NCBI RefSeq assembly: GCF_030400225.1
Contig: NZ_VJYB01000001.1
Span: forward strand, 1 to 64,000
Length of the DNA stretch: 64,000 nucleotides
Origin: Lactobacillus sp. UCMA15818
GTDB lineage: Bacteria; Bacillota; Bacilli; Lactobacillales; Lactobacillaceae
Direction of reading: 5' to 3'
Part shown: positions 34,313-54,014 of the stretch, one piece after another
Layout of the letters: the number at the start of each line of letters is the position of its first letter
How positions within the stretch are numbered: the stretch's first letter is position 1
Program-made: the position numbers and the translations under genes
Notes under the pieces: generated by a model
Database searches by the model: none
Seen by the model: only the letters and a program-made list of their open reading frames with translations
Told to the model about the DNA's origin: nothing

Positions 34313-34320
34313 TATGTAAA

Positions 34321-35223: not shown

Positions 35224-35639
35224 TTAATCAACAACCTTTCTCAATTACGTCGAATATCTCAGCTTTTATTATATCATTTTATATGTAATCTATACCTTTT
35301 CAACCACAAAAATTTATCCTCATTAGTTCAAGATACAGGTAAGTATGAATATAAGAGTAAAAATTACATATTTATTTTAAAAACAGTAACATTGGTATAA
35401 GGGTATAGTTTTTTTGTAATGTGCTATATATGATTTCTATTATCCAGTGATATAATAAAAATAATATATGGACATCTTGTTTGATAAAAAAAGAATGTCT
35501 CAAAAAAGAATTGAGTGTACCTTTAACTAATATTTATTTAATTATAAGTACTTTGCTTAATTGGAATTTTGTGTTATTAGAGTAACATTAAGTTAAATAA
35601 AATTAAGCCTGATCCAATTATTGAAGGAGAATAGTCAGC
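35224..35639. other. Divergent promoter region between the GIY-YIG gene and BREX
   Basis: An AT-rich 416-base gap. It contains a loose hairpin GGACAT...ATGTCT near 35470-35502 and a short palindrome GTTATTAGAGTAAC near 35573. The BREX ribosome binding site GAAGGAG lies at 35624-35630. No BrxR-type WYL regulator gene and no other open frame is present here. Exact promoter boxes could not be fixed. Confidence 0.5.
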
Positions 35640-36242
35640 ATGACGGAGAAAAAGTACAGTGCAGGATTAGTTTCACAACGATTTTGGTTTTATGAAACTA
35701 AGCAATATATTGAAATGCTAAATGAAGGTAAAACTGATATAGAGATTAAACAACTTAGTGAGGAAGTAAATATATTTGGAGCACCCAGTGCAAGTCGTGC
35801 AAAAGAGACCTACAGAACAGCACGGCGTCGAATAAATGCTTTAGGAAATGAAATGCAAGGGTTGTTTCCTAAATTAAACCTGGACAATCAAAAAATTACT
35901 ACTTTGATATCAGTTCTTTTGTTAAATGATTTAATGCTGGAATTTATGTTTGAAGTCTATCAAGGTCAACTTCAAAAAGGAATCTTGCAATTGCCATCAA
36001 CTGACTACAAAGCTTTTTTTTCTGAGAAGCAAAGAACCAATATAATTGTTTCCAGATGGAAGCCATATACTTACCATCGTTTGGCAAGTACATATCGAAA
36101 TTTTTTACTTGAATCGGGTTTGATTCGGGAGACTAAAGGTGTTGATATCATAACGCCAAAAGTTTTAGATTCCCATGTTTTAAAATGGTTGCAATCTATT
36201 AATCGCTTAGATATTAGAAAAGCAATAACTGGGGGAGTATAG
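35640..36242 (+). CDS. brxA: BREX protein BrxA (DUF1819)
   Basis: A 200-residue protein, first gene of the type 1 BREX phage-defence operon. It matches the family layout: KYSAGLVSQRFWFYETKQYIEML at the start, helical repeats, and the conserved SRWKPYTYHRLASTYRNFLLESGLIRE in outline near residues 138-165. BrxA is a small helical DNA-binding protein needed for, or contributing to, phage exclusion in known BREX systems. GAAGGAG precedes the ATG. brxB follows after three bases. Confidence 0.9.
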   Translation: MTEKKYSAGLVSQRFWFYETKQYIEMLNEGKTDIEIKQLSEEVNIFGAPSASRAKETYRTARRRINALGNEMQGLFPKLNLDNQKITTLISVLLLNDLMLEFMFEVYQGQLQKGILQLPSTDYKAFFSEKQRTNIIVSRWKPYTYHRLASTYRNFLLESGLIRETKGVDIITPKVLDSHVLKWLQSINRLDIRKAITGGV

Positions 36243-36245
36243 TAA

Positions 36246-36833
36246 ATGAAAAAAACGATAGAAGAGCGGTTCAAGGCCCTTGATCAAACAATTAAGTCAG
36301 AAGACTTTCTAACAAATCGCGGATTGGGAAATGAGGTTGGGTACTATATTTTTGATTACGATCCAAAAGATGAGCTGTTGGTGCGTGAACATGTTGATTA
36401 TTTAGAGAACCAAAATTCGTCAGTAGTCGATGGTTTTACTCTCCAAGTGTTTAATCTTTACAAAATTATGATGGAATTACTAGAGTCAAAAAAATATCTT
36501 AATATTATTTCTCAATGGGAAAAAAAACACGATATTATGTTTGTGGCGACACGCATTAATCGTTTACTTAAGATGGAAGAATTTGATGACAGTGAGATGT
36601 ATTTCACGGATTATATTATGCATCGTGTAGAAAGTAACTCAGTTGTAATTTTGACCGGTATAGGTGAGATATATCCGCTAGTTCGGGCACATTCAATATT
36701 GAATAAAATGCATTTAGTTTACACAAAACGCCCGGTTATAATGATGTATCCGGGGGAATATGACCGTTTGCGCTTAACCATATTAGATACAAATCGTGAC
36801 GCTAATTACTATAGAGCTTTTAGAATTAATTAG
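36246..36833 (+). CDS. brxB: BREX protein BrxB (DUF1788)
   Basis: A 195-residue protein of the DUF1788 family: RFKALDQTIKSEDFLTNRGLGNEVGYYIFDYDP in outline at the N-terminus and a C-terminal VVILTGIGEIYPLVRAHSILNKMH with PVIMMYPGEYD. BrxB is essential for BREX defence in tested systems, with an unknown biochemical role. GGGGGAG lies before the ATG and inside the end of brxA. Second gene of the operon, with brxC 12 bases downstream. Confidence 0.92.
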   Translation: MKKTIEERFKALDQTIKSEDFLTNRGLGNEVGYYIFDYDPKDELLVREHVDYLENQNSSVVDGFTLQVFNLYKIMMELLESKKYLNIISQWEKKHDIMFVATRINRLLKMEEFDDSEMYFTDYIMHRVESNSVVILTGIGEIYPLVRAHSILNKMHLVYTKRPVIMMYPGEYDRLRLTILDTNRDANYYRAFRIN

Positions 36834-36845
36834 GAGAGTAAACAA

Positions 36846-39800
36846 ATGAAAATTAATGATATGTTTTTAAGAAATATCCATCGAGATATTGAAGGTGTTA
36901 TCACTGCTTCGAAAGCAACTGATAGGCAAGTTTACCAGGAGCTAGATGAATACGTTGTTACAAAGGAACTTCAAGGCCATTTTAGAACTTTTTTTGATGC
37001 TTATAAGAAAGGAATTACTGGAAATACAAATAAAATGGGTGTTTGGATTCAAGGATTCTTTGGTTCTGGTAAATCTCATTTTTTAAAAATTCTTTCCTAC
37101 ACTCTTGAGAATAAAGAAATTAATGGGAAAACAGCTTTTGATTTTCTTACTGAAGGTGATGAGCAAACACGAAAAATTAAGGACCCGATGACCATTGCGA
37201 ATATGAATTTAGCTGCTAAAACTCCAACAAATGTCATTCTTTTCAATGTGGAATCAAAACATCAGACAGGTGTTGAAGAAAAGAATAGTTTAGTAAACGT
37301 TTTCTTGAAAGTTTTCAATGATAGTTTGGGATATTCGACTAATCCTAAAGTTGCTGACTTGGAACGACGTTTAGATAAAAAAGGAAAATATGATGAGTTT
37401 AAGGAAAACTTCAAGAAGAAAAATGGAATTGAATGGACTAAAGAGCGACACGAAGTTGATTTTATTCAAGATTCAGTAGTGGACAGCTTGGTTAGTATTG
37501 GATATATGTCTGAGGATGCTGCTAAAACTTGGTTTAACAAATTAGAATCAGACTATATTATTAGTATTGAAGGTTTTGCAAATCTAGTTGAAGAATATCT
37601 TCAATCAAAAGGTAATAATGAACATATTGTATTTTTGGTAGATGAAATCGGACAGTATATTGGTGGAAATAGTGATTTAACGTTGCAGTTGCAGACTATT
37701 GTTGAAGAACTTGGAGACAAGTCTCATGGAAAGGCATGGGTCATTGCTACTAGTCAACAAGCTATTGATAAGATTACTGACATAGCTGGTGCAGCGGCCC
37801 TAGACTTTTCGAAAATTAAAGGTCGTTTTGAAACTACATTATCACTTTCATCTGCTAATGCGGATGAGGTTATTCAAAAACGCATACTTGCCAAAAATAT
37901 TACCGGGCAAAATTATTTGGAAGCAGATTATCCAAATTATGAAAATGATATTAATCAAATATTGATTTTTGAAGATAGTCCAGAGCTGAAACTTTATAAT
38001 AGTGCTAAGAATTATGCAGATGTCTATCCATTTATTCCTTACCAATTTAACTTGTTAGCAAACATCTTAACACAAATTTCAAAACACTCTATTCAAGGAG
38101 CAAATCTTTCCCGAGGAGAACGTTCATTACTTGCGTTTTTCAAAGAAACTGCTGAACGAAATGCCAATAATGATAGTTCAACTTTGGTCTCATTGGATCA
38201 ATTTTATCCGTCACTTGAAAAATGGCTGAATGAAACTGACAATGCAAAGGTAATTAAACAAGCAGAAGAAAATACACGAATAGTACCAGATAAAAATGAT
38301 CATTTCAACATTGCTATTCTAAAAGTCTTATTCATGATTAAATATGTGGATCAAAACATTAAGCCAACTCTTAACAATATAACAAACTTGATGATTTGTC
38401 ATGTGAATGAAGATAAATTAGTTCTTCAAAAAAAAGTTGAAATTGCTTTGAAAATCTTAATTAGTGAAAATTTGATTCGTCAAAACTTAAAAAATTATGT
38501 ATTTCAAACGGATGAGGAACAAGAAGTGACGCGCTTGATTAACAATATTGATTTGAATGAAACGGACATTGAAGATAGGCTCGCTCGAGATATTTTGGAT
38601 GACAAAATTGGACGAAATCAGTTTTCATATAAGAACCCACATGCAGTGGGGAAAATGTTCGAAAATCGCTATAATTTTACGTATAACTTTTATGTGGATG
38701 ATTACGCATATCGTAAGAATAGTAATCCTAATCTAGAAGTTAAGATTATTACACCTGATCATCCCTTATGGAATGATGAAACACAACTTATCTTAGCAAG
38801 TACAAAAAATCAAATGCTGATTAATTTACCTGTTGATCAAGACTTTATGAATCACATCAGGACGTATTTACAAGTTGAAAAATACATCACTACTGCTAAT
38901 ACATCAAGTGCTATTAGGAATTTTGTAGCCGTTAAAACTGAGAAAACTTCCGAAAATCAAGAGTTGATTAATTCAATTAATGTTCAGTTAAATGACTTTT
39001 TAAAACAAGCAACGTTCTACTTTAACAATAACAAATTAGAGGTTTCAGGTTCAGATTTTAAAGCATGCCTCAATGATGCTTTGCAACAAATGGCTAAACT
39101 TGTTTATTACAAAAATGATTTGGTAGATTCAGCAATTTCTGAATCCGATATTAATAGTTTGTTAAAATACAGCGATAGTGAATTGGTTGCTCATGTAGAA
39201 AATCAAAATGTAGTTGATGATGTGAGTCGATATATTTTATTACAGGAAAATAAAAATCTTACAGTGACAATGAAAACATTACGGGATAACTATCTTAATA
39301 ATGCACCATACGGATTTGTTAATGAAGATTTGGAGTGGACAATTGCTCGTCTATTTAAGGAAGGGAGCATTAGTCTCTTCAAAAATGCAATTCCACTAGA
39401 TACTAATTCAGATATAAATGAAATTTCAAAAGCTATATCTGATCGTAAATCGCCAGAAAAAATTCGTGTCAAACTTCGTCAAAAAGCGAATGATGTCCAG
39501 AAAAAAATGGTCCGTAATTTAGGCGAAGAATTATTTAAAAGTCGTAGTATTGTTGACGAAAATAATGATGATACAACACGTCTGCGATTCAATGAAAAGA
39601 CCCAACGAATGATATCTGAGTTAAATAGCTTCAAAGACACATTTGGCCATTATTATCCTCAATCAAGTGAAATAAATGAAGCACTTGGTGTCTTACAACA
39701 AGTCGTAGATGCTCGTGATACGAAATCATTCTTTGAAGTTTTGAAAAATAAAGAAGAAGAATTACTTGATTGGGCAGAGAACTATGAAGATATTCATAAT

Positions 39801-40475
39801 TTCCATACTAGTAATCAAAAACTAATTTGGGATAAGGCAAGAGATTATATTAGCCGCGTAGAAGACAGTACTACCCAAGAACCGACTGATAGAATTAATT
39901 CAATCCTTGCAGGGATGAAAAATATCATGAAACAAGCATCTCCATATCGCGCTATTCCAAAACTAAGCGAATTGAATAGTCAGTATGAGACAGAGTACAT
40001 GAAATTCATGGAATCTAAGTCTAATGATGCTACTGATGAAATAAAGTCAGTTAAACGAGATGTTCTAGAAGATTTAGATAGTCGCGATATTGGTGACAAT
40101 TTTAAAAGTGAAGTAGTTCAAAAATTTGATAATTTAATTCAGTCTTTAGTAGATACACAAACATTAGACCAAATTGTGTTACTCAAAGCTCAAGCTGATA
40201 CATTGCAATATACTTTTACAAAGAAATTCACTGCAGAGGAAAATCGCAGACGTGAGGAAGCCGCTAGAAAAGCTAGAGAATTTAGTAAAATTAGTCAAGA
40301 TCCCCCAATTTCAGCTAAACCAATTAAAAAGGTAAGAAATGTATATATGAAAGACTTGATCAAAACTCGTCAACGAATTAATTCTGAGGCGGATGTGAAT
40401 GCTTTCGTAAATAAATTGAAACAAGAATTACTTTCAGAGTTAAATGATGATAATGAGTTAGATATTCTACTGTAA
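36846..40475 (+). CDS. brxC: BREX ATPase BrxC
   Basis: A 1209-residue P-loop ATPase, the usual size for BrxC. Walker A is GFFGSGKSH at residues 70-78 and Walker B is VFLVDEIG near residues 261-268. The C-terminal third is helical and charged, with coiled-coil character near residues 1120-1150 (ENRRREEAARKAREF). BrxC is part of the complex with PglX, BrxB and PglZ that recognises and blocks phage DNA. No frameshift or truncation. Flanked by brxB and pglX with short gaps. Confidence 0.94.
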   Translation: MKINDMFLRNIHRDIEGVITASKATDRQVYQELDEYVVTKELQGHFRTFFDAYKKGITGNTNKMGVWIQGFFGSGKSHFLKILSYTLENKEINGKTAFDFLTEGDEQTRKIKDPMTIANMNLAAKTPTNVILFNVESKHQTGVEEKNSLVNVFLKVFNDSLGYSTNPKVADLERRLDKKGKYDEFKENFKKKNGIEWTKERHEVDFIQDSVVDSLVSIGYMSEDAAKTWFNKLESDYIISIEGFANLVEEYLQSKGNNEHIVFLVDEIGQYIGGNSDLTLQLQTIVEELGDKSHGKAWVIATSQQAIDKITDIAGAAALDFSKIKGRFETTLSLSSANADEVIQKRILAKNITGQNYLEADYPNYENDINQILIFEDSPELKLYNSAKNYADVYPFIPYQFNLLANILTQISKHSIQGANLSRGERSLLAFFKETAERNANNDSSTLVSLDQFYPSLEKWLNETDNAKVIKQAEENTRIVPDKNDHFNIAILKVLFMIKYVDQNIKPTLNNITNLMICHVNEDKLVLQKKVEIALKILISENLIRQNLKNYVFQTDEEQEVTRLINNIDLNETDIEDRLARDILDDKIGRNQFSYKNPHAVGKMFENRYNFTYNFYVDDYAYRKNSNPNLEVKIITPDHPLWNDETQLILASTKNQMLINLPVDQDFMNHIRTYLQVEKYITTANTSSAIRNFVAVKTEKTSENQELINSINVQLNDFLKQATFYFNNNKLEVSGSDFKACLNDALQQMAKLVYYKNDLVDSAISESDINSLLKYSDSELVAHVENQNVVDDVSRYILLQENKNLTVTMKTLRDNYLNNAPYGFVNEDLEWTIARLFKEGSISLFKNAIPLDTNSDINEISKAISDRKSPEKIRVKLRQKANDVQKKMVRNLGEELFKSRSIVDENNDDTTRLRFNEKTQRMISELNSFKDTFGHYYPQSSEINEALGVLQQVVDARDTKSFFEVLKNKEEELLDWAENYEDIHNFHTSNQKLIWDKARDYISRVEDSTTQEPTDRINSILAGMKNIMKQASPYRAIPKLSELNSQYETEYMKFMESKSNDATDEIKSVKRDVLEDLDSRDIGDNFKSEVVQKFDNLIQSLVDTQTLDQIVLLKAQADTLQYTFTKKFTAEENRRREEAARKAREFSKISQDPPISAKPIKKVRNVYMKDLIKTRQRINSEADVNAFVNKLKQELLSELNDDNELDILL

Positions 40476-40493
40476 CTGATAGGAGCGCTATTA

Positions 40494-43241
40494 ATGGACA
40501 AAAAAGCAATTAAGATTTTTGCCATGGAGTCTCGTGTGAAACTTCGTGAAGGCATTATTAATAAATTAGCTAAGTTAGGTATTACAGAAAATAATATTGG
40601 TGAAATTGTTAAAATTGGAAACGATACTATTGAGGTCTCTTCAAATAATGAACGCTTTACAGGCAAAGATGTCGTCAACCGTGCTAAGTTAATTGAAGCA
40701 CTGGTTAAACGTAAAAAGCAAGTTGATCCAAAAGAAAAGAATCGCGCAGCAATTGCTTTTGACAATTTAGTAGAAGAAGTGGCATATACTTGGTTTAATC
40801 GCTTAATTGCTATGCGTTTTATGGAAATAAATGACTACTTGCCAGGACATCAACGTGTTCTTTCAAGTGAGGTTGATGGGAAAAGAGAACCTGATATCAT
40901 TACAAATCTATTAGATTCACAGTTGTACCAAGAAATGGATACGGCTATGCAGAACCGAGTCATAGAATTAATGTCAGTTAACTCAGCTAATGCGGTAGAT
41001 GAACTTTATCAACTTGTTTTTATCAAACAATGTAATAGTTTGAACCAACAATTACCTGACTTATTTGAACGTATTGATGACTATACCGAACTTTTGTTTA
41101 CAATCTCGTACATAGATAATAACGGTGTACTTGCAAACTTGCTAACAATTCCAGAAGAGAATTTCAATGTGAAAAAAGGTGGGCAAGTAGAAATTATTGG
41201 ATGGATGTACCAATATTATAATACTGAACCCAAAGACAAAGTGTTTGCTCGTGGTCATCGAAAGATTCGTGCAGATGAGATCCCCGCTGCTACACAATTA
41301 TTTACACCGGATTGGATTGTGCGTTATATGGTGGAAAATTCACTTGGTCGTTACTATATTGACCAAAAAATGGCTGATCCTTTGGAAATACGCACCGAGA
41401 AAGAAATTGCAGACGAATTTGGTTGGAAATACTACTTGTCAACTGCTGAACAACCTGAAGATGTGCAGTTACAGATTGTTGCTGAACAAAAGGATAAAAG
41501 TGTTATCGCTTTACAAGAACTAAAACTGATTGATCCAGCAATGGGAAGTGGGCACATTCTTGTGTATGCTTTTGATGTATTCATGCAGCTTTATGTTGCT
41601 GAAGGTTACCGCGAACGTGACGCTGCTGAGTTAATTATACTGAATAATTTATTTGGGTTAGAAATTGACAAACGGGCCTATCAACTAGCTTATTTTGCCT
41701 TGATGATGAAAGGTCGAGAATACAATCGACGAATTCTAAATAAAAAAATGAAGTTGAATTTATATCAATTTATTAATTCTGAAGATATTTCGGTCGAATA
41801 TTTCAAACGTTTAGAAAAACTATCAACTCTTTCACATGCAAAATTTACTGAAAAACTAGACCAACTTAATTCAATTATTGAACAATTTACTCATGCAACA
41901 GAAATTGGTTCAATATTAAATTTTCATAACATAAATAATAAAGAAATTGATGAACTTCATAAGTTTGTTGATGTATTTGATAAATTTTCTGATATGGACA
42001 TTCTTTATCAATTACCTGAAACTCACAAAAAGATTTTGCAAATTTTTGATATTGTTAAAACTATTACCTCGAAATATACGGCGGTAATAACTAATCCACC
42101 ATACTTGAATAAGATGAGTCCCATACTTGATAAATACGTCAAGGATAATTATCCTGATGTAAAAACAGACTTGTTCTCTGTATTTATTAAGATGAATAGT
42201 CAAATGCTTGTTGAAGATGGATATGCTGGTTTTATGACACCGTTTGTCTGGATGTTCATCAAATCTTATGAAAAATTGCGCAACTTCTTGATTACGAATA
42301 AAAGTATCTCTAGTCTGGTTCAAATGGAGTATTCTGCATTTGAGGAAGCGACTGTACCTGTTTGTTGTTTTACAATTAAAAACACAAAAAATGAGCCAGT
42401 TGGAAACTATTTCAAATTGTCGGATTTCCGCGGAGGTATGGAAATCCAAAAAGCGAAAGTTCTTGGGGGAGTTAAGAACCCAGATCTAAGTTATGTTTAT
42501 CAAACAAATCAGAAAAATTTTACAAAGATTCCGGGGAGCCCTATATCGTTTTGGGTAAGCGAAAAGCTTATTCATGATTTCGTTATTGGAACACGAATGG
42601 ATAAAATTGTAACTTCTAAGCAGGGTTTGGCAACTGCGGACAATAACCGTTTCCTACGTGAATGGTGGGAGGTTGACTTGAACCGTATTAAGTTTGATGC
42701 TACCTCCATAGAGGACTCAGTTAAATCAGGAAAAAAATGGTTTCCATACAATAAAGGCGGTTCATTTAGACGTTGGTATGGCAACTATGATTATGTGGTT
42801 AATTGGGAGAATGATGGTCGAGAAATAAAAAATTTCGTTGATGATAAAGGAAAGCAACGAAGCGTGGTGCGAAACCCAAGTTATTACTTCAAAGAAGCGA
42901 TAACTTGGTCGGATGTCACAAGTGGTGATTTTTCAATGAGATTTCGTGAATCTGGAAGTGTTTTTGATTCAACCGGTCATTCAGCTTTTAATAAATTGGC
43001 TGAAAATAAACTTTATTTACTGGGTCTTCTTAACACTCCTGTAGGGAACTATATTTTCAAAATCTTGAACCCTACTATTCACATGCACATAGGTTATGTG
43101 TCATTATTTCCTACGCTCGTCAATCTTAATTGCGAGGATCACATAAATTCTATAGTTAGACAAAACATCGAGATTTGTAAAAAAGATTGGCTAAACAAAG
43201 AGACTGGTTGGAAAGCTTTTGGAAAACATCAATTATTATAA
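40494..43241 (+). CDS. pglX: BREX adenine methyltransferase PglX, active cassette, lacking the fused C-terminal domain
   Basis: A 915-residue N6-adenine methyltransferase that marks host DNA for BREX. Residues 1-338 are invariant N-terminal sequence. Motif I DPAMGSGH is at 347-354 and motif IV NPPY at 534-537, followed by a target-recognition region to the end (...KAFGKHQLL). Typical type 1 PglX is about 1200 residues; the missing part (FIxxYGLQDEL onward) is encoded separately at 46664. Codon 339 onward lies in an invertible segment: a 129-bp inverted repeat matches cassette B and a 28-bp one matches cassette A. A symmetrical terminator follows. Confidence 0.93.
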   Translation: MDKKAIKIFAMESRVKLREGIINKLAKLGITENNIGEIVKIGNDTIEVSSNNERFTGKDVVNRAKLIEALVKRKKQVDPKEKNRAAIAFDNLVEEVAYTWFNRLIAMRFMEINDYLPGHQRVLSSEVDGKREPDIITNLLDSQLYQEMDTAMQNRVIELMSVNSANAVDELYQLVFIKQCNSLNQQLPDLFERIDDYTELLFTISYIDNNGVLANLLTIPEENFNVKKGGQVEIIGWMYQYYNTEPKDKVFARGHRKIRADEIPAATQLFTPDWIVRYMVENSLGRYYIDQKMADPLEIRTEKEIADEFGWKYYLSTAEQPEDVQLQIVAEQKDKSVIALQELKLIDPAMGSGHILVYAFDVFMQLYVAEGYRERDAAELIILNNLFGLEIDKRAYQLAYFALMMKGREYNRRILNKKMKLNLYQFINSEDISVEYFKRLEKLSTLSHAKFTEKLDQLNSIIEQFTHATEIGSILNFHNINNKEIDELHKFVDVFDKFSDMDILYQLPETHKKILQIFDIVKTITSKYTAVITNPPYLNKMSPILDKYVKDNYPDVKTDLFSVFIKMNSQMLVEDGYAGFMTPFVWMFIKSYEKLRNFLITNKSISSLVQMEYSAFEEATVPVCCFTIKNTKNEPVGNYFKLSDFRGGMEIQKAKVLGGVKNPDLSYVYQTNQKNFTKIPGSPISFWVSEKLIHDFVIGTRMDKIVTSKQGLATADNNRFLREWWEVDLNRIKFDATSIEDSVKSGKKWFPYNKGGSFRRWYGNYDYVVNWENDGREIKNFVDDKGKQRSVVRNPSYYFKEAITWSDVTSGDFSMRFRESGSVFDSTGHSAFNKLAENKLYLLGLLNTPVGNYIFKILNPTIHMHIGYVSLFPTLVNLNCEDHINSIVRQNIEICKKDWLNKETGWKAFGKHQLL
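41508..41636 (+). repeat. Inverted repeat arm 1L (inside active pglX)
   Basis: 129 bases, 126 identical to the complement of 45462-45590; mismatches at 41558, 41564 and 41570. The first 50 (41508-41557) and last 66 (41571-41636) bases are perfect. It starts exactly at codon 339 and covers motif I. Likely crossover region for inversion. Confidence 0.9.
42881..42908 (+). repeat. Inverted repeat arm 2L (inside active pglX)
   Basis: 28 bases identical to the complement of 43619-43646 in cassette A, encoding YYFKEAITW in both. Weaker similarity continues upstream (FVDDKGK region). Confidence 0.9.
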
Positions 43242-43244
43242 AAG

Positions 43245-43281
43245 AAAAGGGTAATCCTATTAAATTAGGTTTGCCCTTTTC
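43245..43281. terminator. Symmetrical terminator between pglX and cassette A
   Basis: GAAAAGGG-TAATCCTA pairs with TAGG-TTTGCCCTTTTC, with A-rich sequence before and T-rich after. It lies between the converging stop codons of active pglX (43241) and cassette A (43292), so it would end transcription in either orientation of the segment. Confidence 0.8.
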
Positions 43282-43291
43282 AACTTTCTTA

Positions 43292-43705
43292 CTAAATTAG
43301 TGGATGCTTGTTGAAGTTCCAATGATCATAGATCTGATTCCAATCATTTTTTGTAATTTGAATATTTTCTTTAACTAGTTCAATTATTCTTGGATTATCA
43401 GTATCAAAAATTACCGGTATATTTTGAAAATCACCGACTTGTGAATTAATTGTTGGATTGAGCACCTTTAAAATATTATTGCCAATTGGTGTATTTACCA
43501 TTCCTAACACATAAAAGATATTGATTTCTTTGTTTGAAAATGCTGACATACCAGAAACGTCATGAATACTGCCATATTCTCGAAAACGCACACTTAATCC
43601 ACCAGATGTTATTAATGGCCAAGTTATCGCTTCTTTGAAGTAATAATCGGTATTTTGTGGACGCGACCGAAGTTTTCCCTTATCATCGACGAAAATTTTG
43701 ATTTA
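43292..43705 (-). pseudogene. Silent pglX 3' cassette A (PglX C-terminal target-recognition end)
   Basis: On the minus strand this reads FVDDKGK, then YYFKEAITW, RFREYGSIHDVSG, LGMVNTPIGN, LKVLNPTINSQVGD and ends NFNKHPLI-stop. Each block aligns with the end of the active PglX (RFRESGSVFDSTG, LGLLNTPVGN, FKILNPTIHMHIG, AFGKHQLL-stop). It has no start codon or ribosome binding site of its own. Swapping through the 28-bp repeat gives an in-frame protein of 913 residues. Stored alternative sequence rather than a decayed gene. Confidence 0.85.
43619..43646 (-). repeat. Inverted repeat arm 2R (inside cassette A)
   Basis: Perfect 28-base complement of 42881-42908, in the same reading frame relative to PglX. 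The 710 bases between the two arms include the active 3' end, the symmetrical terminator and cassette A. Confidence 0.9.
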
Positions 43706-43910
43706 TTAAGCATTATCTCTTAAATTTTCATGTAATCATAGTTACTGTAAAGAAAAGGAAAAAATGTCTTGCTAATTATTTCAGACGGTACTGAATTTAA
43801 AAGATATAAAGTAACATATTCAATTTTTTGCTTGAATAGTCTGTCATTATAATTAGAAAAGCTTAAATTCCATTCCTGTATAAATTTATTTATTAAAAAA
43901 AATAACAAAT

Positions 43911-45590
43911 TTATATTAGTGAGTGTTTTTTGAAATCCCAAGAAATTTCAAAGGAGTCCCAATAAAGTCTAGACTCATCAATAAGTTCTTGAACTTTTCC
44001 TGTAATTATGCTCTTATCATCTAAATTCATTACCATTGATGCAACAGTACCTGGTTGGTAGTTCATTGTAGGATTAATCAATTTAAACACCTCATTAGTC
44101 AAGGGAGAGTTTAAAATTCCTAGAATATAATTGGTATCTTTTTTATTTTTAGCAAATATTTTACTACCGGCATTATCAAACAATGAATGAGTAGAATATC
44201 TGCAAGAAAATTTACCAGATGTTAATGCTGACCAAGTAATTCCTTCATCAAAAATATAGTCCAAGTTATAGTTATGACTTCTAACTTTCCCATGGTTATC
44301 TTTAAAAGTCTGTATTGCGAAACCATCAGACTTCCAGTTTACAAGATATTCATTGTTACCGTACCAACGTTTAAAACTTCCACCTTTATCATAAGGAAAC
44401 CAAATTCTTTTAGAATTTATTGCTTCAAGGCGACTATTGGCTGAAAAGTTTGCTTGATTAATATCAATTTCATGCCAAAATCTCAAGAAAGTATCATTAT
44501 CAGCAGTAGCCATGCCAAGTCTGGCATCTCCATATTCTGAAATGGTTTTATTTTTAAACAATTTTAGAAGATTTTCGCTTACCCAATACGAAATTGGTTG
44601 TCCCGGAATTTTAGCAAAGTTATCTTGGAAAGTATAATATAGATAATCTGCTTTATCAGCACCAATAGCCTCTAGTACTTTTGTTTCTTTCAACTTATAA
44701 TTTTTGAAATCAACAAGTCTTAAGTAACTACCAACATAGCTTTTATGTTTAAGTGGTGACATCACAAAAATAGTTGTTTGTACAACTTCACCGCCAATCT
44801 CTTCGAAAGCACGAGTTCCTAAATGAACCATATTAATGATGGTTTGCTGATTAACTTTGAAACGCAATTTTTCAAAACTAGACAGGAACATCCAAGCGTG
44901 TTGTGTAATCATTGTATAATATCCAGACGATTTAATCATTTTTTTCAGTCTTTCAATAAACACACCAAATAGGTCACTTTTGCTGTCTGGATAGACTTTC
45001 TTTACGAAATCTGATAGAACTTTATTCATACCAGAACTACCCATATAAGGTGGATTCGTAATTCCAATATCATATTTCTGTTGTAATAACTCTCCAACAT
45101 TCACCATCTCACTAATTGCAGGATACAAAAGCGATACAGTTCCTTCATTAAGCCCAGCTTTTAGATTATCGAAATTAATGCCTTTGAACTCAATTAACGA
45201 GCCTAAATCAATTGCATCTTTAAAACCATCAATCAATTGTAATAAATCTTGATGTGCTTTTTTTTGATTAGGAAATTTAATATTTAGTAATTGGAGTTCA
45301 GTTTCATTAATACCAAAATTGTCAGATATGGCATAAATATTTGGTTTGATATCCTTAGACAAAATTAGTCTTGAGTATTGACGGCCTTTCATTATCAATG
45401 CAAAGTAAGTTAACTGGAAAGCACGCTTATCAATATCCAGTCCATAGAGATTATTTTGAAGAATTAACTCAGCAGCGTCACGTTCGCGGTAACCTTCAGC
45501 AACATAAAGCTGCATGAATACATCAAATGCATATACAAGGATGTGCCCACTTCCCATTGCTGGATCAATCAGTTTTAGTTCTTGTAAAGC
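43911..45590 (-). pseudogene. Silent pglX 3' cassette B (methyltransferase core plus target-recognition region)
   Basis: 559 codons on the minus strand starting ALQELKLIDPAMGSGH, identical to PglX residues 339-354, with its own NPPY (GITNPPYMGS) and a different downstream half ending SWDFKKHSLI-stop. It lacks the 338-residue N-terminal part and any ribosome binding site before the internal ATG at 45557, so it is unlikely to be made as it stands. Inversion at the 129-bp repeat would join it in frame to the pglX start, giving 897 residues. It lies five bases from the recombinase stop codon. Confidence 0.88.
45462..45590 (-). repeat. Inverted repeat arm 1R (start of cassette B)
   Basis: Complement of 41508-41636 with three mismatches. 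Its outer end (45590) is four bases from the recombinase stop codon (45595-45597). The two arms bound a 4.08-kb segment. Confidence 0.9.
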
Positions 45591-45594
45591 AAAA

Positions 45595-46530
45595 TCATTC
45601 AGATAGTGCTTTCATCATAATTTTCATAATCAACTTTGTTTCACGTTCTTCCATTTCTTTGATGATATGTAAGTACACACTTTGAGTTGTAGTCACATCT
45701 TTATGTCCAAGTCTGCGACTAACACTTAAAATGTTGACATTTTTAAACAATAAAATAGAAGCATGTGTATGCCGTAATCCATGAAAAGAGATAGATGCGA
45801 TATTGAGTTTATCACACAGCTTCTCAAGATGGCGATTAATAGTTGCACTAACAGGTAATTTGCCATTTTCATTTTCACAAATTTTTTGTTGCGGAAGTTT
45901 GAATTTTCTTGCACGTATTATGTTTTTGATTACATGAAGTGTTTTTGTATCTACGTCTATAGTTCGAATTGAGCTTGAATTTTTTGTTGGTTTGAAACCA
46001 GTATGATATTTGTAGTCCCAGGTCTTATTCACGACAATGAGTTTACTTTTAAAATTAATATCTGCAACAGTCAATCCGAGAACCTCTGCAAATCGTAGAC
46101 CAGTCATTGCTGAAAGATAAATAATGAAGTCATAAGAATTGGTTGAAATACAAGTTGCTTGGATTAAAGTCTGCCACTCTGAATAAGAGTGAAACATAAC
46201 TTTTTCAGTAACTTTTTCACGACCAGTTATAATTGCTTTACGTGTAAAGTCTGTCTTAATAATTCCCTCTTCAAGTGCATCAATAACTGCTGCTCGAATT
46301 TGTTTATGAAATCCTGCAGTTGTCCGCTTAGCATGAGTTTTAGCAAAGTTATTCAAAACAGTTTGGTAGTTTTGGCGCGTTATTTTGTTGAATTTGATAT
46401 CACCAAAGTAATTTTTGATATGCTGATAGGTGTTTTGGTACTTTACATAAGTTACCGAGGAAATTGCTGGTTTCTTGAAAGTTTCCATCCATTCATGAAA
46501 ATAATTAGCAAGTGTTAAATTTGTAGTCAT
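45595..46530 (-). CDS. Tyrosine recombinase (phage integrase family), candidate pglX invertase
   Basis: About 311 residues. The N-terminal part is a SAM-like core-binding domain (LTLANYFHEWMETFKKP; YQTVLNNFAKTHAKRT). The catalytic domain has Arg in TGLRFAEVLGL, H-x-x-R in SFHGLRHTHASILL, His in RRLGHKDVTTT and the nucleophile Tyr in QSVYLHI. It ends next to cassette B, the layout of recombinases that invert DNA-methyltransferase cassettes. AAGGGA at 46541-46546 favours the ATG at 46530 over that at 46548. It lies just outside the invertible segment, so its own orientation is fixed. Confidence 0.9.
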   Translation of the reverse strand: MTTNLTLANYFHEWMETFKKPAISSVTYVKYQNTYQHIKNYFGDIKFNKITRQNYQTVLNNFAKTHAKRTTAGFHKQIRAAVIDALEEGIIKTDFTRKAIITGREKVTEKVMFHSYSEWQTLIQATCISTNSYDFIIYLSAMTGLRFAEVLGLTVADINFKSKLIVVNKTWDYKYHTGFKPTKNSSSIRTIDVDTKTLHVIKNIIRARKFKLPQQKICENENGKLPVSATINRHLEKLCDKLNIASISFHGLRHTHASILLFKNVNILSVSRRLGHKDVTTTQSVYLHIIKEMEERETKLIMKIMMKALSE

Positions 46531-46627
46531 TTGAATAGTTCCCTTCATATTTATTCGTACTTAATAAGAATATGGCTTTGTGGAAGAAAAATTAACAATG
46601 AATAATACAAATATTATAAAAACACAG

Positions 46628-46633
46628 TATAAT
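46628..46633 (+). promoter_or_regulatory. Probable -10 box for the distal BREX genes
   Basis: A perfect TATAAT lies 36 bases before the GTG at 46664, in the gap between the leftward recombinase and the rightward pglX-C/pglZ/brxL genes. No good -35 was found. A promoter is needed here because pglX is followed by a terminator and the intervening genes point the other way. Confidence 0.5.
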
Positions 46634-46663
46634 ATAAAATAGAAACAAACAGGGGGTTGCATA

Positions 46664-47599
46664 GTGGCTAAATTAATCAAAGATAAATTTGAGGCCTGGG
46701 AAAAAGAATCACGGGATCGCTTTAATCAATTGAAATCAAATGAAGAAGAACTAAATAAAATTTTCATTAAACTCTATGGCTTACAAGATGAGCTTGATTA
46801 TCATGTGGACGATAAAGAAGTGTCTGTTTCCCTAGCTGACCGCGAACGTGATATTAAATCATTAATTAGTTACGCGGTTGGTTGTATGTTCGGGAGATAT
46901 TCATTAGATGAAGAGGGGCTTATCTTCGCTGGTGGAGACTTTGATATATCTCGCTATCATAAATTTAAGCCAGATGTAGATAACATTTTACTAATTACGG
47001 ATGATGAGTATTTTCAAGATGATCAAAGTGATATTGTAATAAAATTTGTAGAATTTATCTCTATTGTCTATGGGAAGGAAACGTTGGAAGAAAACTTAGA
47101 CTATATTGCAGATATTCTACCTGGTAGTGGAAAAAGTCGTGCTAAGATTCGTAAATATTTTGTATCTAAATTCTACGCTGACCATATGTTAACTTATAAA
47201 AAACGTCCAATTTATTGGCAATTTGATTCTGGAAAAGCAAATGGTGTGAAAGCGTTGATGTACTTACATCGCTATGATGAAAATTTGCTTGGACATTTGC
47301 GTATTGATTATGTGACAAAATTGAGCCATGCTTATAATTCTCGAATCGAATTACGTGAAAGTCAAAAAATAGCTACATCAAATGCTGGTGAATCAGCTCG
47401 ATATGAAAAAGAAATTATTAAAATTAAAAAACAACTAAAAGAGCTGCATGAATTTGATAATAAACTTGGTCACTTAGCTTTAAAGAAAATTTTACTTGAT
47501 TTGGATGATGGAGTAGTTGTAAATTATGATAAACTGCAGCGTGATCCAGATAATGGTGAAAAATTTATAATTTTGACTAAGGGTGTAAAAGAACCTTAA
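46664..47599 (+). CDS. Separately encoded C-terminal domain of PglX
   Basis: A 311-residue protein with the sequence pattern that normally forms the end of full-length type 1 PglX: AWEKESRDRFNQLKSNEEEL, IKLYGLQDEL (38-44), ISYAVGCMFGRYSLDEEGL, GKETLEENLDYIA, KRPIYWQFDSGK with a following LMYLHRYD, and a coiled-coil tail. It has no methyltransferase motif. 915 plus 311 residues equals a normal PglX length, and the split falls just after the HQLL/HPLI/HSLI ends of the three cassettes. GTG start with AGGGGG upstream. It probably completes PglX in trans; that is inference. Confidence 0.82.
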   Translation: MAKLIKDKFEAWEKESRDRFNQLKSNEEELNKIFIKLYGLQDELDYHVDDKEVSVSLADRERDIKSLISYAVGCMFGRYSLDEEGLIFAGGDFDISRYHKFKPDVDNILLITDDEYFQDDQSDIVIKFVEFISIVYGKETLEENLDYIADILPGSGKSRAKIRKYFVSKFYADHMLTYKKRPIYWQFDSGKANGVKALMYLHRYDENLLGHLRIDYVTKLSHAYNSRIELRESQKIATSNAGESARYEKEIIKIKKQLKELHEFDNKLGHLALKKILLDLDDGVVVNYDKLQRDPDNGEKFIILTKGVKEP

Positions 47600-47611
47600 G
47601 GAGAAAAGAAA

Positions 47612-50152
47612 ATGTCAGATTTAAATTTAAGTCAAATTCAGACTCGTTTAAATGAGCTTTTTGTAACATATGGAGAACGTAAACTCATTTTTTGGTTTGA
47701 TCCAAAAAATGAGTTTGAAGAGGATATTGATAAAAAACAGATTCAATTAAACGATGCCAAGATTTATAAACTTGAGTCACGGACTCAGCTTATGACTAAA
47801 CGTTTCTTTGAAATTGAAGACAAAAAAAATAATTATCTCATTTATGCCCCTTTCAAAAAAATGGATGACGATGATGAAAATAACCATCTATTAAGTATTA
47901 TGAAATATTCAAGTCAATTTAGTGCAGATCGAATTTCGCTTATAATGACACAACTTAACATTCCATCGAATTTACACGATACAATGGAAAAGTATACTAA
48001 ATTTTTTGGAGCAAAATCCCGTATAGCTGCTTTTGAAAAACTTATGACTACGAAAATTAACTCTAAACAGGAACTTGAAATAACATTGATAGCTGTTGTG
48101 ACAAAAGCAAACACGGCTCAAATTTATAGTATTATTCAAGCTTTGTTAATTGATTATACTAATACTTCAAGTAACTTGTATGATCAGCTAGCGAGCTTTG
48201 GCTTGCAAGAGGCACTCTGGAAATATATCTCTAAATATTATGGATATACAGCTAAGGAACCGACAATTCAAAAGTTAGCTATCTCATTTTTTGCAAATGC
48301 TTTCTATGGTCAGATGGGGCATCAAAAATTACCAGCTAACTTGAAGGAATATGAAGTTCCTAACCAAACAACTGCAATTGTATCATTTATGGATGGTGTA
48401 ATGAATGATTCTCGCTATACAGCAACGTTTGATAAGTTGAGTAAAGATACTTATTGCTTGATTGGAGGAGATAAAATTCTTGCTAAAGCGCCTATTGAGG
48501 AATTGTTGGCAGCGGATATATTTGAACCAATTCACATTCTGGTAATTCAGTACTACATAAGGCAATTAATGAGTGGGGATTTAACGCCGATGATTAGTGG
48601 AATATCATTATCAGAAGCATTGATACTTAAGCAACGAGCTCATTTTGGTATTAAATACGTGCATCAATATGAAGTAATTTTGAATGCTCAGAAGATACTA
48701 AAGTACGTCTTAAATACTAACACCGATCAATTTACATCATTTGTTAAAGACTACGAAACATCATCTTATTTGGTAGATCAGTATTATCGTAAATTTATTT
48801 GGCATCTGGATAGATGTGCTGAACAAGATAAGTTTACCAAATTGCAAGTGCTAGTTGAAAAACAATATAGGACATTTTTGGATGAAATTGGTCGATTGTG
48901 GAATGCTTTATTGTATTTAGATGAACGGCCTTCAATGCTTGATTTCTATGATAAATTTGCAAAGAACAAAATGAAAACTGTTGTAATCATTTCGGATGCT
49001 TTACGATACGAAGTAGCAAAAGAAATTCAACAATTTCTTGAACAAGAAAAAAAGTATTCTTCAAAAATGGATACAATTTTCACAGTATTACCTTCTGTGA
49101 CAGAATTTGGGAAAGCTGCTTCATTACGTGGGAATCATGAACCATATGAATATATTAAAGATACAGATGTTCGAGTAAATGGTTTAAAAACACAAGGAAC
49201 AGTTGCACGAAATAAAATTCTTAAAGAAAAAAATTCAAATTCATTGGCAATTACCTACGAAAACGTTATGGGAAAATCAAATGCAAAAGAACTTCGAGAA
49301 GTGTTTAATGGTCAAGAAGTGATTTACCTTTATCATGATCAAATTGATGCAACTGGAGATAAAATTGGAACAGAGTCTCAAGTATTTAATGCAGTAGAAA
49401 ATACGATTAAGGAACTGATAGCACTTATTCAATTTATTTCAAATGGTGCAAATGTCTATCGTTTTATTATTACAAGCGACCATGGATTTATTTATACAAG
49501 ATCTAAAGTAGAGGAACACGAGAAGATTGAGAATCCATCTAGTTCTGATTTAGATCACGTTGAGCGGCGTTTTATTATTAGCAAGAACCATTATGATGAA
49601 ATTGGTATTGGTTCTGTCAAATTAGGGGACGTATTGCATAATGAAGATGATCGCTATGTTCATTTTCCAGAAACTTCAGCTATTTTCAAAAAAGCTGGTG
49701 GAGGTCAGAACTATGTCCATGGTGGCTCATCTCCCCAAGAAATGATTGTTCCAGTATTAGAAATAAGCGTGGCTCGTGGATCCGCACAAAAAAAACCAGT
49801 AACAATTCAATTAATGACTGCTAAAAGAAAAATCATTGGGTTATCTGTTGCTCTTGAATTTTATCAAACAGAGGCGATTAATGATTCTGTTACAAAAGCT
49901 CAATATTCGCTTTATTTTGAAGATGGCAAAGGAAATCTAATTACAAACCAAAATGCTTATTATGCTGATTCAACTTCTGGTCAATCGAGTGAACGATTTA
50001 CGAACTTTACTTTTGATTTCGTAAATCGTAATTATGATACAAATGAAAAAATTTATTTGATTGTAAAAAATGAAGAGACAAAAATTGAAACAGAACATAT
50101 TGAATTTGCGATTGATAATCCATTTGCTGGTGGATTTGGATTCGATATTTAG
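47612..50152 (+). CDS. pglZ: BREX phosphatase-like protein PglZ
   Basis: An 846-residue protein, normal for type A PglZ. The N-terminal part (residues 1-90) is the PglZ-specific domain with RKLIFWFDPKNEF. The alkaline phosphatase-superfamily core has KTVVIISDALRYEVAKEI near 455-472 (metal-site Asp) and IITSDHGFIYTRSK near 618-631 (metal-site D-H-G). PglZ is a metal-dependent member of the BREX core complex. AAGGAG lies before the ATG; brxL follows after a ten-base gap. Intact. Confidence 0.94.
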   Translation: MSDLNLSQIQTRLNELFVTYGERKLIFWFDPKNEFEEDIDKKQIQLNDAKIYKLESRTQLMTKRFFEIEDKKNNYLIYAPFKKMDDDDENNHLLSIMKYSSQFSADRISLIMTQLNIPSNLHDTMEKYTKFFGAKSRIAAFEKLMTTKINSKQELEITLIAVVTKANTAQIYSIIQALLIDYTNTSSNLYDQLASFGLQEALWKYISKYYGYTAKEPTIQKLAISFFANAFYGQMGHQKLPANLKEYEVPNQTTAIVSFMDGVMNDSRYTATFDKLSKDTYCLIGGDKILAKAPIEELLAADIFEPIHILVIQYYIRQLMSGDLTPMISGISLSEALILKQRAHFGIKYVHQYEVILNAQKILKYVLNTNTDQFTSFVKDYETSSYLVDQYYRKFIWHLDRCAEQDKFTKLQVLVEKQYRTFLDEIGRLWNALLYLDERPSMLDFYDKFAKNKMKTVVIISDALRYEVAKEIQQFLEQEKKYSSKMDTIFTVLPSVTEFGKAASLRGNHEPYEYIKDTDVRVNGLKTQGTVARNKILKEKNSNSLAITYENVMGKSNAKELREVFNGQEVIYLYHDQIDATGDKIGTESQVFNAVENTIKELIALIQFISNGANVYRFIITSDHGFIYTRSKVEEHEKIENPSSSDLDHVERRFIISKNHYDEIGIGSVKLGDVLHNEDDRYVHFPETSAIFKKAGGGQNYVHGGSSPQEMIVPVLEISVARGSAQKKPVTIQLMTAKRKIIGLSVALEFYQTEAINDSVTKAQYSLYFEDGKGNLITNQNAYYADSTSGQSSERFTNFTFDFVNRNYDTNEKIYLIVKNEETKIETEHIEFAIDNPFAGGFGFDI

Positions 50153-50162
50153 GAGGAAGTTA

Positions 50163-52196
50163 GTGGATCAAGTTATTTTAGATAAATTAGTGGCAAATTT
50201 TCCTGGAAAAATTGTCCGTAAAGATTTAACAAAAAAAATTAAAGAGGGAGCAAATGTTCCTGTTTATGTGTTGGAATATTTGCTGGGAATGTATGCTTCA
50301 TCGTTGGACGAAGATCTTGTTCAAAAGGGAGTGGAAAATGTCAAAAATATTTTAGCTCGCAATTACGTTCGTCCAGATGAAGCTGAAAAAGTGAAAGCAA
50401 AGATTCGTGAGAATGGTGGGTACACAGTCATTGATAAAGTCAGTGTTTCTTTGAATGAGAGAAAGGATCAATATGAAGCCGAGTTTTCAAACTTGGGTTT
50501 ATCAGGTGTTCGTATTGGTGATGAGTATCCGAAAAAGTATGATCGATTACTTGGCGGTGGTATTTGGTGTATCGTTCAAATGGAGTACTGGTTTGATGAA
50601 AATGATCAGAAGAATTCGCCATTTATTGCGAAAAAAGTAGATCCAATTCAAATGCCAGGTCTTGATATTGAAGAATTTAAAAGAGGTCGAGCTGCCTTTA
50701 CTGAAAAAGAATGGATTGATATCATACTTCGTTCTATTGGGATGGAACCAACTCAATTTAATGAGCGAGTTAAGTGGCTGCACTTAGCACGTTTAATTCC
50801 GCTAATTGAAAATAATTTCAATTTATGTGAACTTGGTCCACGTGGTACTGGGAAATCACATGTTTATAAAGAAATTTCGCCAAACTCAATTTTGGTGTCG
50901 GGTGGACAAACCACAGTGGCTAATTTGTTCTATAACATGTCTCGTCGAGCAATGGGGTTAGTTGGTATGTGGGATACAGTCGCATTTGATGAAGTAGCAG
51001 GAATCAACGTAAAAGATGGTGATTTAGTCCAAATTATGAAGGATTACATGGCCTCTGGATCATTTGCTCGTGGCAAAGAAGAGAAAAATGCTTCCGCTTC
51101 AATGGTGTTTGTTGGGAATATTAATCAAAGCATAGATGTAATTTTAAAGACTTCAAATTTATTCGAACCATTTCCTGACAAGATGGGGACTGATTCAGCT
51201 TTTCTTGACCGTATGCACTGTTATCTCCCTGGATGGGAAATTCCAAAATATCGTCCCGACTTTTTTACAAATGATTATGGTTTTATCACTGATTATTATT
51301 CAGAAGTAATGAGGGAACTGCGTAAAACAACATATAGTGATGCTATTGATAACTATTTTAAACTCGGTTCTCAACTGAATCAACGGGACACAATTGCAGT
51401 TAAAAAGATGGTATCAGGGTTAATTAAGCTAGTTTATCCAGATGGTAAGTTTGGTAAAAAAGAAGTTGAAAAAGTCCTTAAATTTGCGATTGAAATGCGG
51501 CGACGTGTTAAAGAGCAGCTTAAAAAAATTGGCGGTATGGAATTTTTCGATGTCAACTTATCATATATTGATTTAGAAGAAAATCGTGAAGAGTATGTAT
51601 CGGTACCTGAGCAAGGTAGTGGAACATTAATTCCTGAAGGAATTGGTAAACCAGGACATATTTATTCAGCATCAACCGGTGCAAGTGGACGTATTGGAGC
51701 ATATAAGTTTGAAACACAAATGGTATCTGGCAACGGTAAATTTAAAGCAACTGGTTTAGGCAGTGATTCAGCTGCTAAAGAAAAAACTGATTCAGCATAT
51801 AAATATTTAAATGCCAACGCAGCTGCAATTAGTTCATCTATCTCAACAACTACTCATGATTTTATATTTAATACGCAAGATCTAAATGGTGTTGGAAATC
51901 CTGAATCATTGTCATTACCTACAATGATTGCCTTATGTTCAGTTTCCTTGAATAAACCAATTGTTTCAAGTATGGCTATTTTAGGTGATATAACAATTGG
52001 TGGCACCTTAATTAAGGTAACAAGTCTTGCTGATATGATGCAAGTAGCTCGCGATTCTGGAGCTAAAAAAGTCTTAGTTCCAATGGCAAATGCTGCTGAT
52101 TTGGCAACAGTTCCACCAGAGTTGATGTCAACGTTCAATATTATATTTTACAATACACCTGAAGATGCTGTGTTTAAGGCCTTAGGAGTTGAATAA
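50163..52196 (+). CDS. brxL: BREX Lon-like AAA protein BrxL
   Basis: About 677 residues. The AAA part has GPRGTGKSH near residues 225-233 and a Walker B-like VAFDEVAGI. The C-terminal Lon-type domain spans about 560-677 (NPESLSLPTMIAL, LGDITIGGTLIKV, GAKKVLVPMAN). BrxL forms DNA-binding multimeric rings and is the type 1 marker. The frame is open from 50070, inside pglZ, but AGGAGG at 50151-50156 and the family N-terminus (DQVILDKLVANFPGKIVRKD) fix the GTG at 50163. Confidence 0.94.
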   Translation: MDQVILDKLVANFPGKIVRKDLTKKIKEGANVPVYVLEYLLGMYASSLDEDLVQKGVENVKNILARNYVRPDEAEKVKAKIRENGGYTVIDKVSVSLNERKDQYEAEFSNLGLSGVRIGDEYPKKYDRLLGGGIWCIVQMEYWFDENDQKNSPFIAKKVDPIQMPGLDIEEFKRGRAAFTEKEWIDIILRSIGMEPTQFNERVKWLHLARLIPLIENNFNLCELGPRGTGKSHVYKEISPNSILVSGGQTTVANLFYNMSRRAMGLVGMWDTVAFDEVAGINVKDGDLVQIMKDYMASGSFARGKEEKNASASMVFVGNINQSIDVILKTSNLFEPFPDKMGTDSAFLDRMHCYLPGWEIPKYRPDFFTNDYGFITDYYSEVMRELRKTTYSDAIDNYFKLGSQLNQRDTIAVKKMVSGLIKLVYPDGKFGKKEVEKVLKFAIEMRRRVKEQLKKIGGMEFFDVNLSYIDLEENREEYVSVPEQGSGTLIPEGIGKPGHIYSASTGASGRIGAYKFETQMVSGNGKFKATGLGSDSAAKEKTDSAYKYLNANAAAISSSISTTTHDFIFNTQDLNGVGNPESLSLPTMIALCSVSLNKPIVSSMAILGDITIGGTLIKVTSLADMMQVARDSGAKKVLVPMANAADLATVPPELMSTFNIIFYNTPEDAVFKALGVE

Positions 52197-52308
52197 TTAA
52201 TACGATCTTTAAATCTAGTCGATTCATTTATACAAAAAATTATTCGCTATGTGAGTAGAAAATGGAAAGGTTAAAACAATATTAGATTTAAGATAGGATG
52301 TGTTCAAA

Positions 52309-52398
52309 ATGACGAGTTGGGTTAATAGTCTCGAGCATAAACTTGGATGCTATATGTTTGAAAAATTACTTGTTAAATACCCTGAAGCTTTGCACTGA
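52309..52398 (+). CDS. Possible 29-codon gene or gene remnant
   Basis: An ATG frame reads MTSWVNSLEHKLGCYMFEKL and ends in LH-stop, with AGGATG ten bases upstream. It lies in the 302-base gap after brxL. It may be the broken end of a gene disrupted at the right edge of the island. Function not recognised; the rest of the gap holds only the terminator at 52437. Confidence 0.25.
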   Translation: MTSWVNSLEHKLGCYMFEKLLVKYPEALH

Positions 52399-52436
52399 TA
52401 ACGAATTAAAAAATTCCAATGTTTTTTTGAATATCA

Positions 52437-52484
52437 CAAAAAGAAGTTGCGCCAAAACAAAAATTGTGACACAACTTCTTTTCT
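52437..52484. terminator. Bidirectional terminator at the end of BREX
   Basis: AAAAAGAAGTTG pairs with CAACTTCTTTT across about 25 bases that also pair in part. It lies between the convergent ends at 52196 and 52499, with A-rich and T-rich flanks. Confidence 0.8.
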
Positions 52485-52498
52485 TACTCAAATTAAAT

Positions 52499-53977: not shown

Positions 53978-53993
53978 GAATATATCCTCCTAA

Positions 53994-54014
53994 TAAGAAA
54001 CTAGTAGTATCTTA
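53994..54014. promoter_or_regulatory. TetR operator 1 (pump side)
   Basis: TAAGAAACTAGTAGTATCTTA is near-palindromic: TAAGA/TCTTA ends and ACTA-TAGT inner arms around a central G. It sits just upstream of the pump gene's ribosome binding site. Confidence 0.7.

Follow-up and report, generated by a model that had tools for sequence, protein, structure and literature searches.

The BREX locus of Lactobacillus sp. UCMA15818 raises the question as to how PglX is made when its gene ends before the C-terminal domain (CTD). In the window (the whole stretch of 64,000 nucleotides that was analysed), an earlier sequence-only reading had assigned a 311-residue product, encoded beyond a recombinase, to the end of a split PglX, as one constant domain that several recognition halves would share in trans. 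As the best explanation of the whole, we consider it probable that this is a type 1 BREX system with a two-polypeptide PglX, in which the halves re-associate and a recombinase inverts the DNA at a repeat termed site A. The type 1 BREX set is complete and in order by PADLOC and NCBIfam models (brxA, brxB, brxC, pglX in two pieces, pglZ and brxL; Table 1), and the minus strand between the two PglX halves carries a half TRD, a silent cassette and a tyrosine recombinase. Each of the ten locus proteins tested matches BREX models or a recombinase, and none is the separate recognition subunit of a type I restriction-modification system. Directly ahead of brxA lies a gene for a DUF4357 protein (34321-35223, minus strand). 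The brxL ORF as listed overlaps pglZ by 83 bp (50070-50152) and its family match begins at residue 36-38; the true start is probably further inside the listed ORF.

Table 1. Features of the BREX locus, in order of position in the window.
Feature	Position	Strand	Support or remark
brxA	35640..36242	+	PADLOC BrxA, E 4.2e-49
brxB	36246..36833	+	PADLOC BrxB, E 1e-59
brxC	36846..40475	+	NCBIfam BREX_BrxC, 1066 bits
pglX-N, front half (NTD bundle, MTase, TRD; own stop; presumed expressed)	40494..43241	+	915 aa
Site A, front-half copy	41508..41557	+	perfect 50-bp inverted repeat with 45541-45590
Site B, front-half TRD copy	42881..42908	+	28 bp, YYFKEAITW; perfect inverted repeat with 43619-43646
Hairpin, terminator-like, between convergent cassettes	43244..43281		-21.4 kcal/mol, z -6.2, 0/200 shuffles as stable
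Half-TRD cassette, ends HPLI-stop	43292..43723	-	47% identical to front-half TRD, query residues 419-562
Site B, half-TRD cassette copy	43619..43646	-	pairs with 42881-42908
Silent cassette: MTase (motif I onward) and TRD, with a stop of its own (HSLI)	43911..45557	-	PglX 322-899 of 1210
Site A, silent copy	45541..45590	-	ends 4 bp from recombinase ORF
Tyrosine recombinase	45595..46548	-	Phage_integrase PF00589, E 8.3e-22
pglX-C, PglX C-terminal domain as own gene	46664..47599	+	311 aa; HMM, fold, selection
pglZ	47612..50152	+	NCBIfam TIGR02687; start 12 bp past pglX-C
brxL	50070..52196	+	NCBIfam TIGR02653, match from residue 38

The ORF of pglX-C lies where the sequence-only reading had put it and opens with GTG behind a Shine-Dalgarno-like AGGGGG, and its product carries YGLQDEL, MFGRYSLDEEGL and RPIYWQFDSGK, the patterns that this reading had relied on. 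Alignment with full-length type 1 PglX identifies the product as the C-terminal part of the protein and the front half as the rest: pglX-C covers residues 876-1165 of 1174 in the PADLOC model (E 1.5e-118), 906-1208 of 1210 in NCBIfam BREX_1_MTaseX (E 2.2e-106), 931-1187 in the solved chains 8zek and 9ewz (E 1.4e-50 and 2.9e-50) and 972-1207 in 8c45 (E 4e-49), and no Pfam family was found for it at E up to 1. An AlphaFold model (pLDDT 81, pTM 0.81; residues 33-55 below 50) has a helix at 5-38, and the six best PDB matches found with this model by Foldseek are all BrxX/PglX chains (E 8e-18 to 1.7e-16), with the seventh at E 0.97. The metal site of E. coli BrxX, given as D997, D999, I1001, D1012 and Y1113 in the part of PMC11842806 consulted, aligns with five identical residues in pglX-C (D104, D106, I108, D119 and Y216), which has both the fold and the metal-site residues of the BrxX CTD. 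Among the reported DNA or Ocr contacts of the E. coli protein, R944, G1138 and K1152 are kept, while K1048, T1141 and R1145 are changed to L152, A245 and K249, respectively. Judged from family models and predicted fold, 46664-47599 encodes the CTD of a type 1 PglX, and the whole-genome search gave this one CTD match and no second copy.

The same domain might have taken on a life of its own, for instance as a DNA-binding regulator or as a partner of PglZ or BrxC that no longer completes PglX, leaving the 915-aa half to work alone. Consistent with this, pglX-C sits 12 bp ahead of pglZ and apart from the front half; a relative has a CTD gene (L045:7346-8362) on a 9.3-kb contig where the queries used detected no other BREX gene; and a Streptomyces PglX is described, in the accessible portion of PMC12707154, as active in vitro without these flanking subdomains. 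We nevertheless regard an independent protein as unlikely, since pglX-C retains the initial helix and the metal site found in fused PglX, E. coli BrxX touches DNA through residues of its CTD (PMC11842806, in part), and a front half stands beside the CTD in 18 split loci, 5 with a recombinase and 13 without.

That the two products make up one PglX is further suggested by the front half and the joint. The 915-aa protein matches PglX 1-898 of 1210 in the NCBIfam model and ends there (residues 4-879 of 8c45), and contains MGSGH and NPPY. The NTD, the MTase with motif I and NPPY, the TRD and the CTD of a PglX are thus all present but spread over two genes, and no single polypeptide spans the whole NCBIfam model. 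At the 500-bit cut-off of BREX_1_MTaseX the front half passes with 949 bits and pglX-C fails with 357, making it a gene missed by a single-protein cut-off. As proposed earlier, the lengths add up to a normal PglX (915 + 311 = 1226). E. coli BrxX and Salmonella PglX (9ewz, 8zek, 8c45; PMC11842806 and PMC11341690, both seen in part) share the domains, catalytic motifs and metal-site residues, but are single polypeptides of 1205-1225 aa where here there are two. The distance from the CTD start to an RF..LK.NEE motif is 18 residues in the window, compared with 18-45 in the 48 fused junctions picked up by the search pattern; for example, fused HPLTKGETIGRLISDKYKEWE (L048) can be set beside the split start MTMGRLISDKYKEWE (L033). 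The cassettes of the window end HQLL, HPLI and HSLI, as had been noted before, and in 5/5 loci the front half terminates with H(Q/P)L(L/I/V/T) and a stop. Salmonella PglX has two long spacer helices (850-960) after the TRD, according to an excerpt of PMC11341690, and the cut falls between the two because the front half aligns to residue 879 and the CTD model opens with the helix at 5-38. In the AlphaFold model of the front half (mean pLDDT 67, below 50 in the TRD and beyond) there is a helix at 878-899 with low confidence around it, and this last helix may pack on the first helix of the CTD. Most likely, the halves would re-associate without a covalent bond into a working PglX, the tail acting in trans.

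Is pglX-C a working gene, or does the split reflect decay of pglX in a BREX system that is dead or close to it? Its dN/dS is about 0.06 (0.065 for window-L111 and 0.059 for window-L112, with dS near saturation for L112), and the same pairs give higher values for brxC (0.089 and 0.066) and pglZ (0.104 and 0.116). By this measure pglX-C looks like a working gene under purifying selection. Decay would account for the remnant-like half TRD, which lacks a clear start and has two TAA inside the far end of its matched stretch (the sole listed ORF, 43292-43591, starts at a GTG and has 99 aa), and relatives with broken frames do exist, such as a fused-type pglX with its reading frame broken in the TRD (L114:11034-14331). 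However, besides the low dN/dS, the BREX operon is complete, the CTD start region is the same, with its Shine-Dalgarno-like sequence, in 6/6 loci of the recombinase clade described below, and motif I and NPPY are intact in front-half and silent copies in 5/5 loci, so that we hold decay to be very improbable.

The earlier count of three N-terminal cassettes stands only in part: the first has an N-terminus, but 43911-45557(-) opens at MTase motif I (M350 in front-half numbering), and 43292-43591(-) amounts to no more than a piece of a TRD. No further MTase-TRD copies were found in the genome beyond the front-half gene and these two cassettes. Just ahead of motif I, all five loci with both cassettes have site A, an inverted repeat whose copies match perfectly over 22-50 bp and encode xLQELKL, and which in the window starts GCTTTACAAGAACTAAAACT and encodes ALQELKL. 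Homology between front-half gene and silent cassette stops exactly there, with 25-33% identity outside and 62-86% inside (120 bp) across loci; in the window, the 60 bp outside are 33% identical and the 120 bp inside 86%. The sequence of site A is constant within a locus and variable between loci, and no such pair was found in eight fused loci with up to 3 mismatches allowed. The recombinase motifs TG(L/M)R, HGLRHT and LGH...Y(L/F)H are kept in 5/5 loci examined, and the linked tyrosine recombinase is likely to be the inverting enzyme. Flipping the window in silico at site A gives an open frame of 897 aa and at site B one of 913 aa; because 577/2000 random flips also end at a cassette terminus, these in-frame products are weak evidence. 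A 24-bp repeat marks the start of the TRD in L112 and L113, and together with site B this makes finer exchange likely: half TRDs would be traded by smaller inversions, at site B or, in relatives, at a repeat of this kind. A switch based on simple repeats was rejected, as 34000-54000 holds three weak rows only, of period 20-21. A consensus scan listed no terminator at the hairpin between the convergent cassettes, and a promoter scan gave no match between recombinase and pglX-C; with 22 promoter-like sites against 24.2 expected, promoter and terminator scans are uninformative here.

Comparison between genomes argues that cassettes have in fact changed places. The MTase halves sort into two families (likeness 40-45% within a locus, 53-82% across loci), which occupy opposite places (front-half gene versus silent cassette) in the window and L112 on the one hand and in L111, L113 and L177 on the other; 10/10 pairs agree, and by our own reckoning 16 of 1024 ten-pair patterns fit any two-state division by chance. 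For window-L111, for example, the comparison gives 44 for active with active, 81 for active with silent, 82 for silent with active and 44 for silent with silent. Both cassette arrangements are thus observed between genomes. The TRD1 halves, unlike the MTase families, show no consistent pattern, and the second TRD half is comparable in almost no pair, the cutting motif being missing in most rows. One locus has a DDE transposase gene between front-half gene and silent cassette (L111:8494-10164), and another an extra TRD piece in the orientation of the front-half gene and with inverted-repeat likeness to the silent cassette (L112:9972-10607).

General homologous recombination, rather than the linked recombinase at site A, could also exchange cassettes, given that homology runs past site A into the cassette (62-86% over 120 bp). 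We assign it a low but appreciable probability: a perfect repeat lies exactly at the outer end of homology in 5/5 loci even though its sequence differs between loci, and the catalytic motifs of the recombinase are conserved in all five. With inverted repeats around alternative cassettes and a linked recombinase, the sequence has the make-up of an invertible switch with the CTD left outside. In the preferred model the tyrosine recombinase would invert the DNA between the site A copies, so that the silent cassette takes the place of the expressed MTase-TRD cassette together with its stop, and a single DNA flip probably changes what the BREX system recognises. The earlier proposal of a PglX CTD encoded apart and available to several cassettes is supported, in that nothing in the family models, fold, junction alignment, selection, recurrence, site A or cassette exchange contradicts it.

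Goldfarb 2015 reportedly describes a phase-variable pglX of the Lacticaseibacillus rhamnosus GG type. The portions seen of PMC7513527, PMC11341690 and PMC11842806 refer to phase-variable pglX as already known, and the first of these describes, for an L. rhamnosus strain, a full and a partial pglX with a site-specific integrase between them. The GG type resembles the window in having a full and a partial pglX and an integrase, with inverted repeats in the fused loci seen here, but its CTD is fused, whereas in the window it is a gene of its own beyond the recombinase. Since the CTD is outside the inverting segment and unfused, one pair of sites should be enough. All seven fused loci with a recombinase that were seen whole (L116-L121 and L182) have the order pglX, recombinase, silent copy, pglZ. 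When L114 is added, a clear extra inverted repeat at the TRD/CTD joint is present in 4/8, weak in L121 and absent in 3/8, a layout from which it would follow that a fused tail needs rejoining after the flip. In other Lactobacillaceae loci, a recombinase match was present in 22/26 within the 2.8-3.9 kb examined per locus. These joint repeats (clear in 4/8 fused relatives, weak in a fifth) also favour the idea that in the window the halves are joined at the DNA level, by an inversion or deletion that fuses cassette to CTD, the protein being sometimes whole; but with no joint repeat in the five split loci, cassettes that end in stops and a CTD with its own Shine-Dalgarno-like sequence and start, we consider this exceedingly improbable.

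The likeness to HsdM/HsdS that had been suggested is a loose one, as the TRD stays fused to the MTase and the separated part is the tail; an invertible hsdS with a recombinase is closer. Inverting type I hsdS loci (PMC7394358, in part) have alternative recognition cassettes, inverted repeats and a linked recombinase as here, but their recognition subunit is separate from the MTase, whereas in the window the exchanged unit comprises most of the MTase along with the TRD, and what stays constant and separate is the C-terminal tail. The claim that the split is undescribed also holds for the literature searched: no description of a split PglX was found in the BREX papers, as far as their text was covered, including PMC12839542 (in which 'split' is absent), PMC12707154, PMC11341690, PMC11842806 and PMC9009780.

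The split CTD with a recombinase recurs in five relatives. Together with the window (L111, L112, L113, L177 and L032 being the others) they form a recombinase clade of six loci with SH-aLRT 97, in which L177 and L031 (Enterococcus lemanii DSM 105069) are one and the same match, while L032 comes from a Streptococcaceae MAG. Their sister, L176, has a fused pglX followed by pglZ (support for all seven, 98) and gave no recombinase or silent-copy match; from the tree, split and switch seem to have arrived together. In a family sample of 397 genomes, 49 have a CTD match, of which four are split (window, G005, G149, G074), 40 lie in frames of at least 997 aa and five are either broken or truncated at a contig end (G262, G199, G059, G362, G125). 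An overlapping order sample (395 genomes) gave 35 matches with three split (window, G074, G656), and a phylum sample (398 genomes) 37 matches, some weak, with three split besides the window (G787, G950, G1097) and one broken frame (G976). In a scan of genome contigs, 15 of the best 80 of 562 confirmed loci look split, which is not a frequency, as the 80 were picked by likeness to a split CTD; this sorting covered loci with plus-strand matches. A plasmid search matched 261 records, none at 60% identity or more, and 1/23 loci on viral contigs looks split (L189).

Outside this clade, in Clostridia and others, PglX is likewise divided at this joint or close to it, and a sequence query found no recombinase of the window type in those split stretches. 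On a CTD tree of 156 rows (21 split), the split/fused label changes at least 12 times, as gains or losses. An AU test rejects a topology that unites the split rows in a single clade (p-AU 1.7e-81, for a group named after the data were seen). For this tree both strands were taken; 18 duplicate loci and rows with fewer than 200 matched residues (L181 among them) were left out, six were set aside as 'other', L114 was placed there as broken, L098 and L179 were labelled split after map reading, and 159 rows became 156 once identical ones were merged. Both halves are in view in 13 loci (L033, L038, L041, L046, L056, L066, L071, L091, L098, L100, L179, L180 and L181), and in seven of these the gap between them holds one or two extra plus-strand genes, counting plus-strand genes of at least 150 aa and leaving out a 160-aa minus-strand ORF in the L066 gap. 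These are HEPN with DUF4160 (L056 and L100), a 172-aa gene with no family found together with HEPN (L181), DUF3990 (L038 and L098), a YhcG PD-(D/E)XK nuclease (L071) and a gene with no assigned family (L180). The position of the cut is shifted in L038 and L098, where the front half extends about 100 residues beyond the TRD match. In L041 (1195-2841) the front half is incomplete, with 548 aa from about residue 346, which is where silent cassettes of the window clade start. No front half was found before the split CTD in the 2.2 (L035), 1.2 (L040) and 7.3 kb (L045) available upstream. The CTD of L035 (341-3118) lies at a contig end, directly behind a UvrD-type helicase gene.

In the systems studied, transcripts start at brxA and at pglZ (PMC12707154, in the part seen), and by analogy pglX-C would head a second transcription unit here. 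Possible, if doubtful, is a broader reading in which the tail of PglX would be a BREX subunit in its own right, freed many times in evolution, that here heads the pglZ-brxL part, while in recombinase-less lineages the gap serves as a cargo slot for effectors (HEPN, DUF3990, YhcG nuclease). If so, the cell could pair its defence machinery with any MTase-TRD specificity, and a tail-less front half could be kept as a reserve or as a methylation-only form. C-terminal variants of PglX unlink restriction from modification, according to the portion of PMC12707154 consulted. A natural cut point in PglX means that the CTD, whose role is only partly known, could be studied independently of methylation and recognition, by removing or swapping it. 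Finally, the split offers an explanation of how one inversion may change BREX specificity, compared with the more complex fused layout of the L. rhamnosus GG type, and suggests a rule for a re-targetable BREX: a new front half, the same tail.
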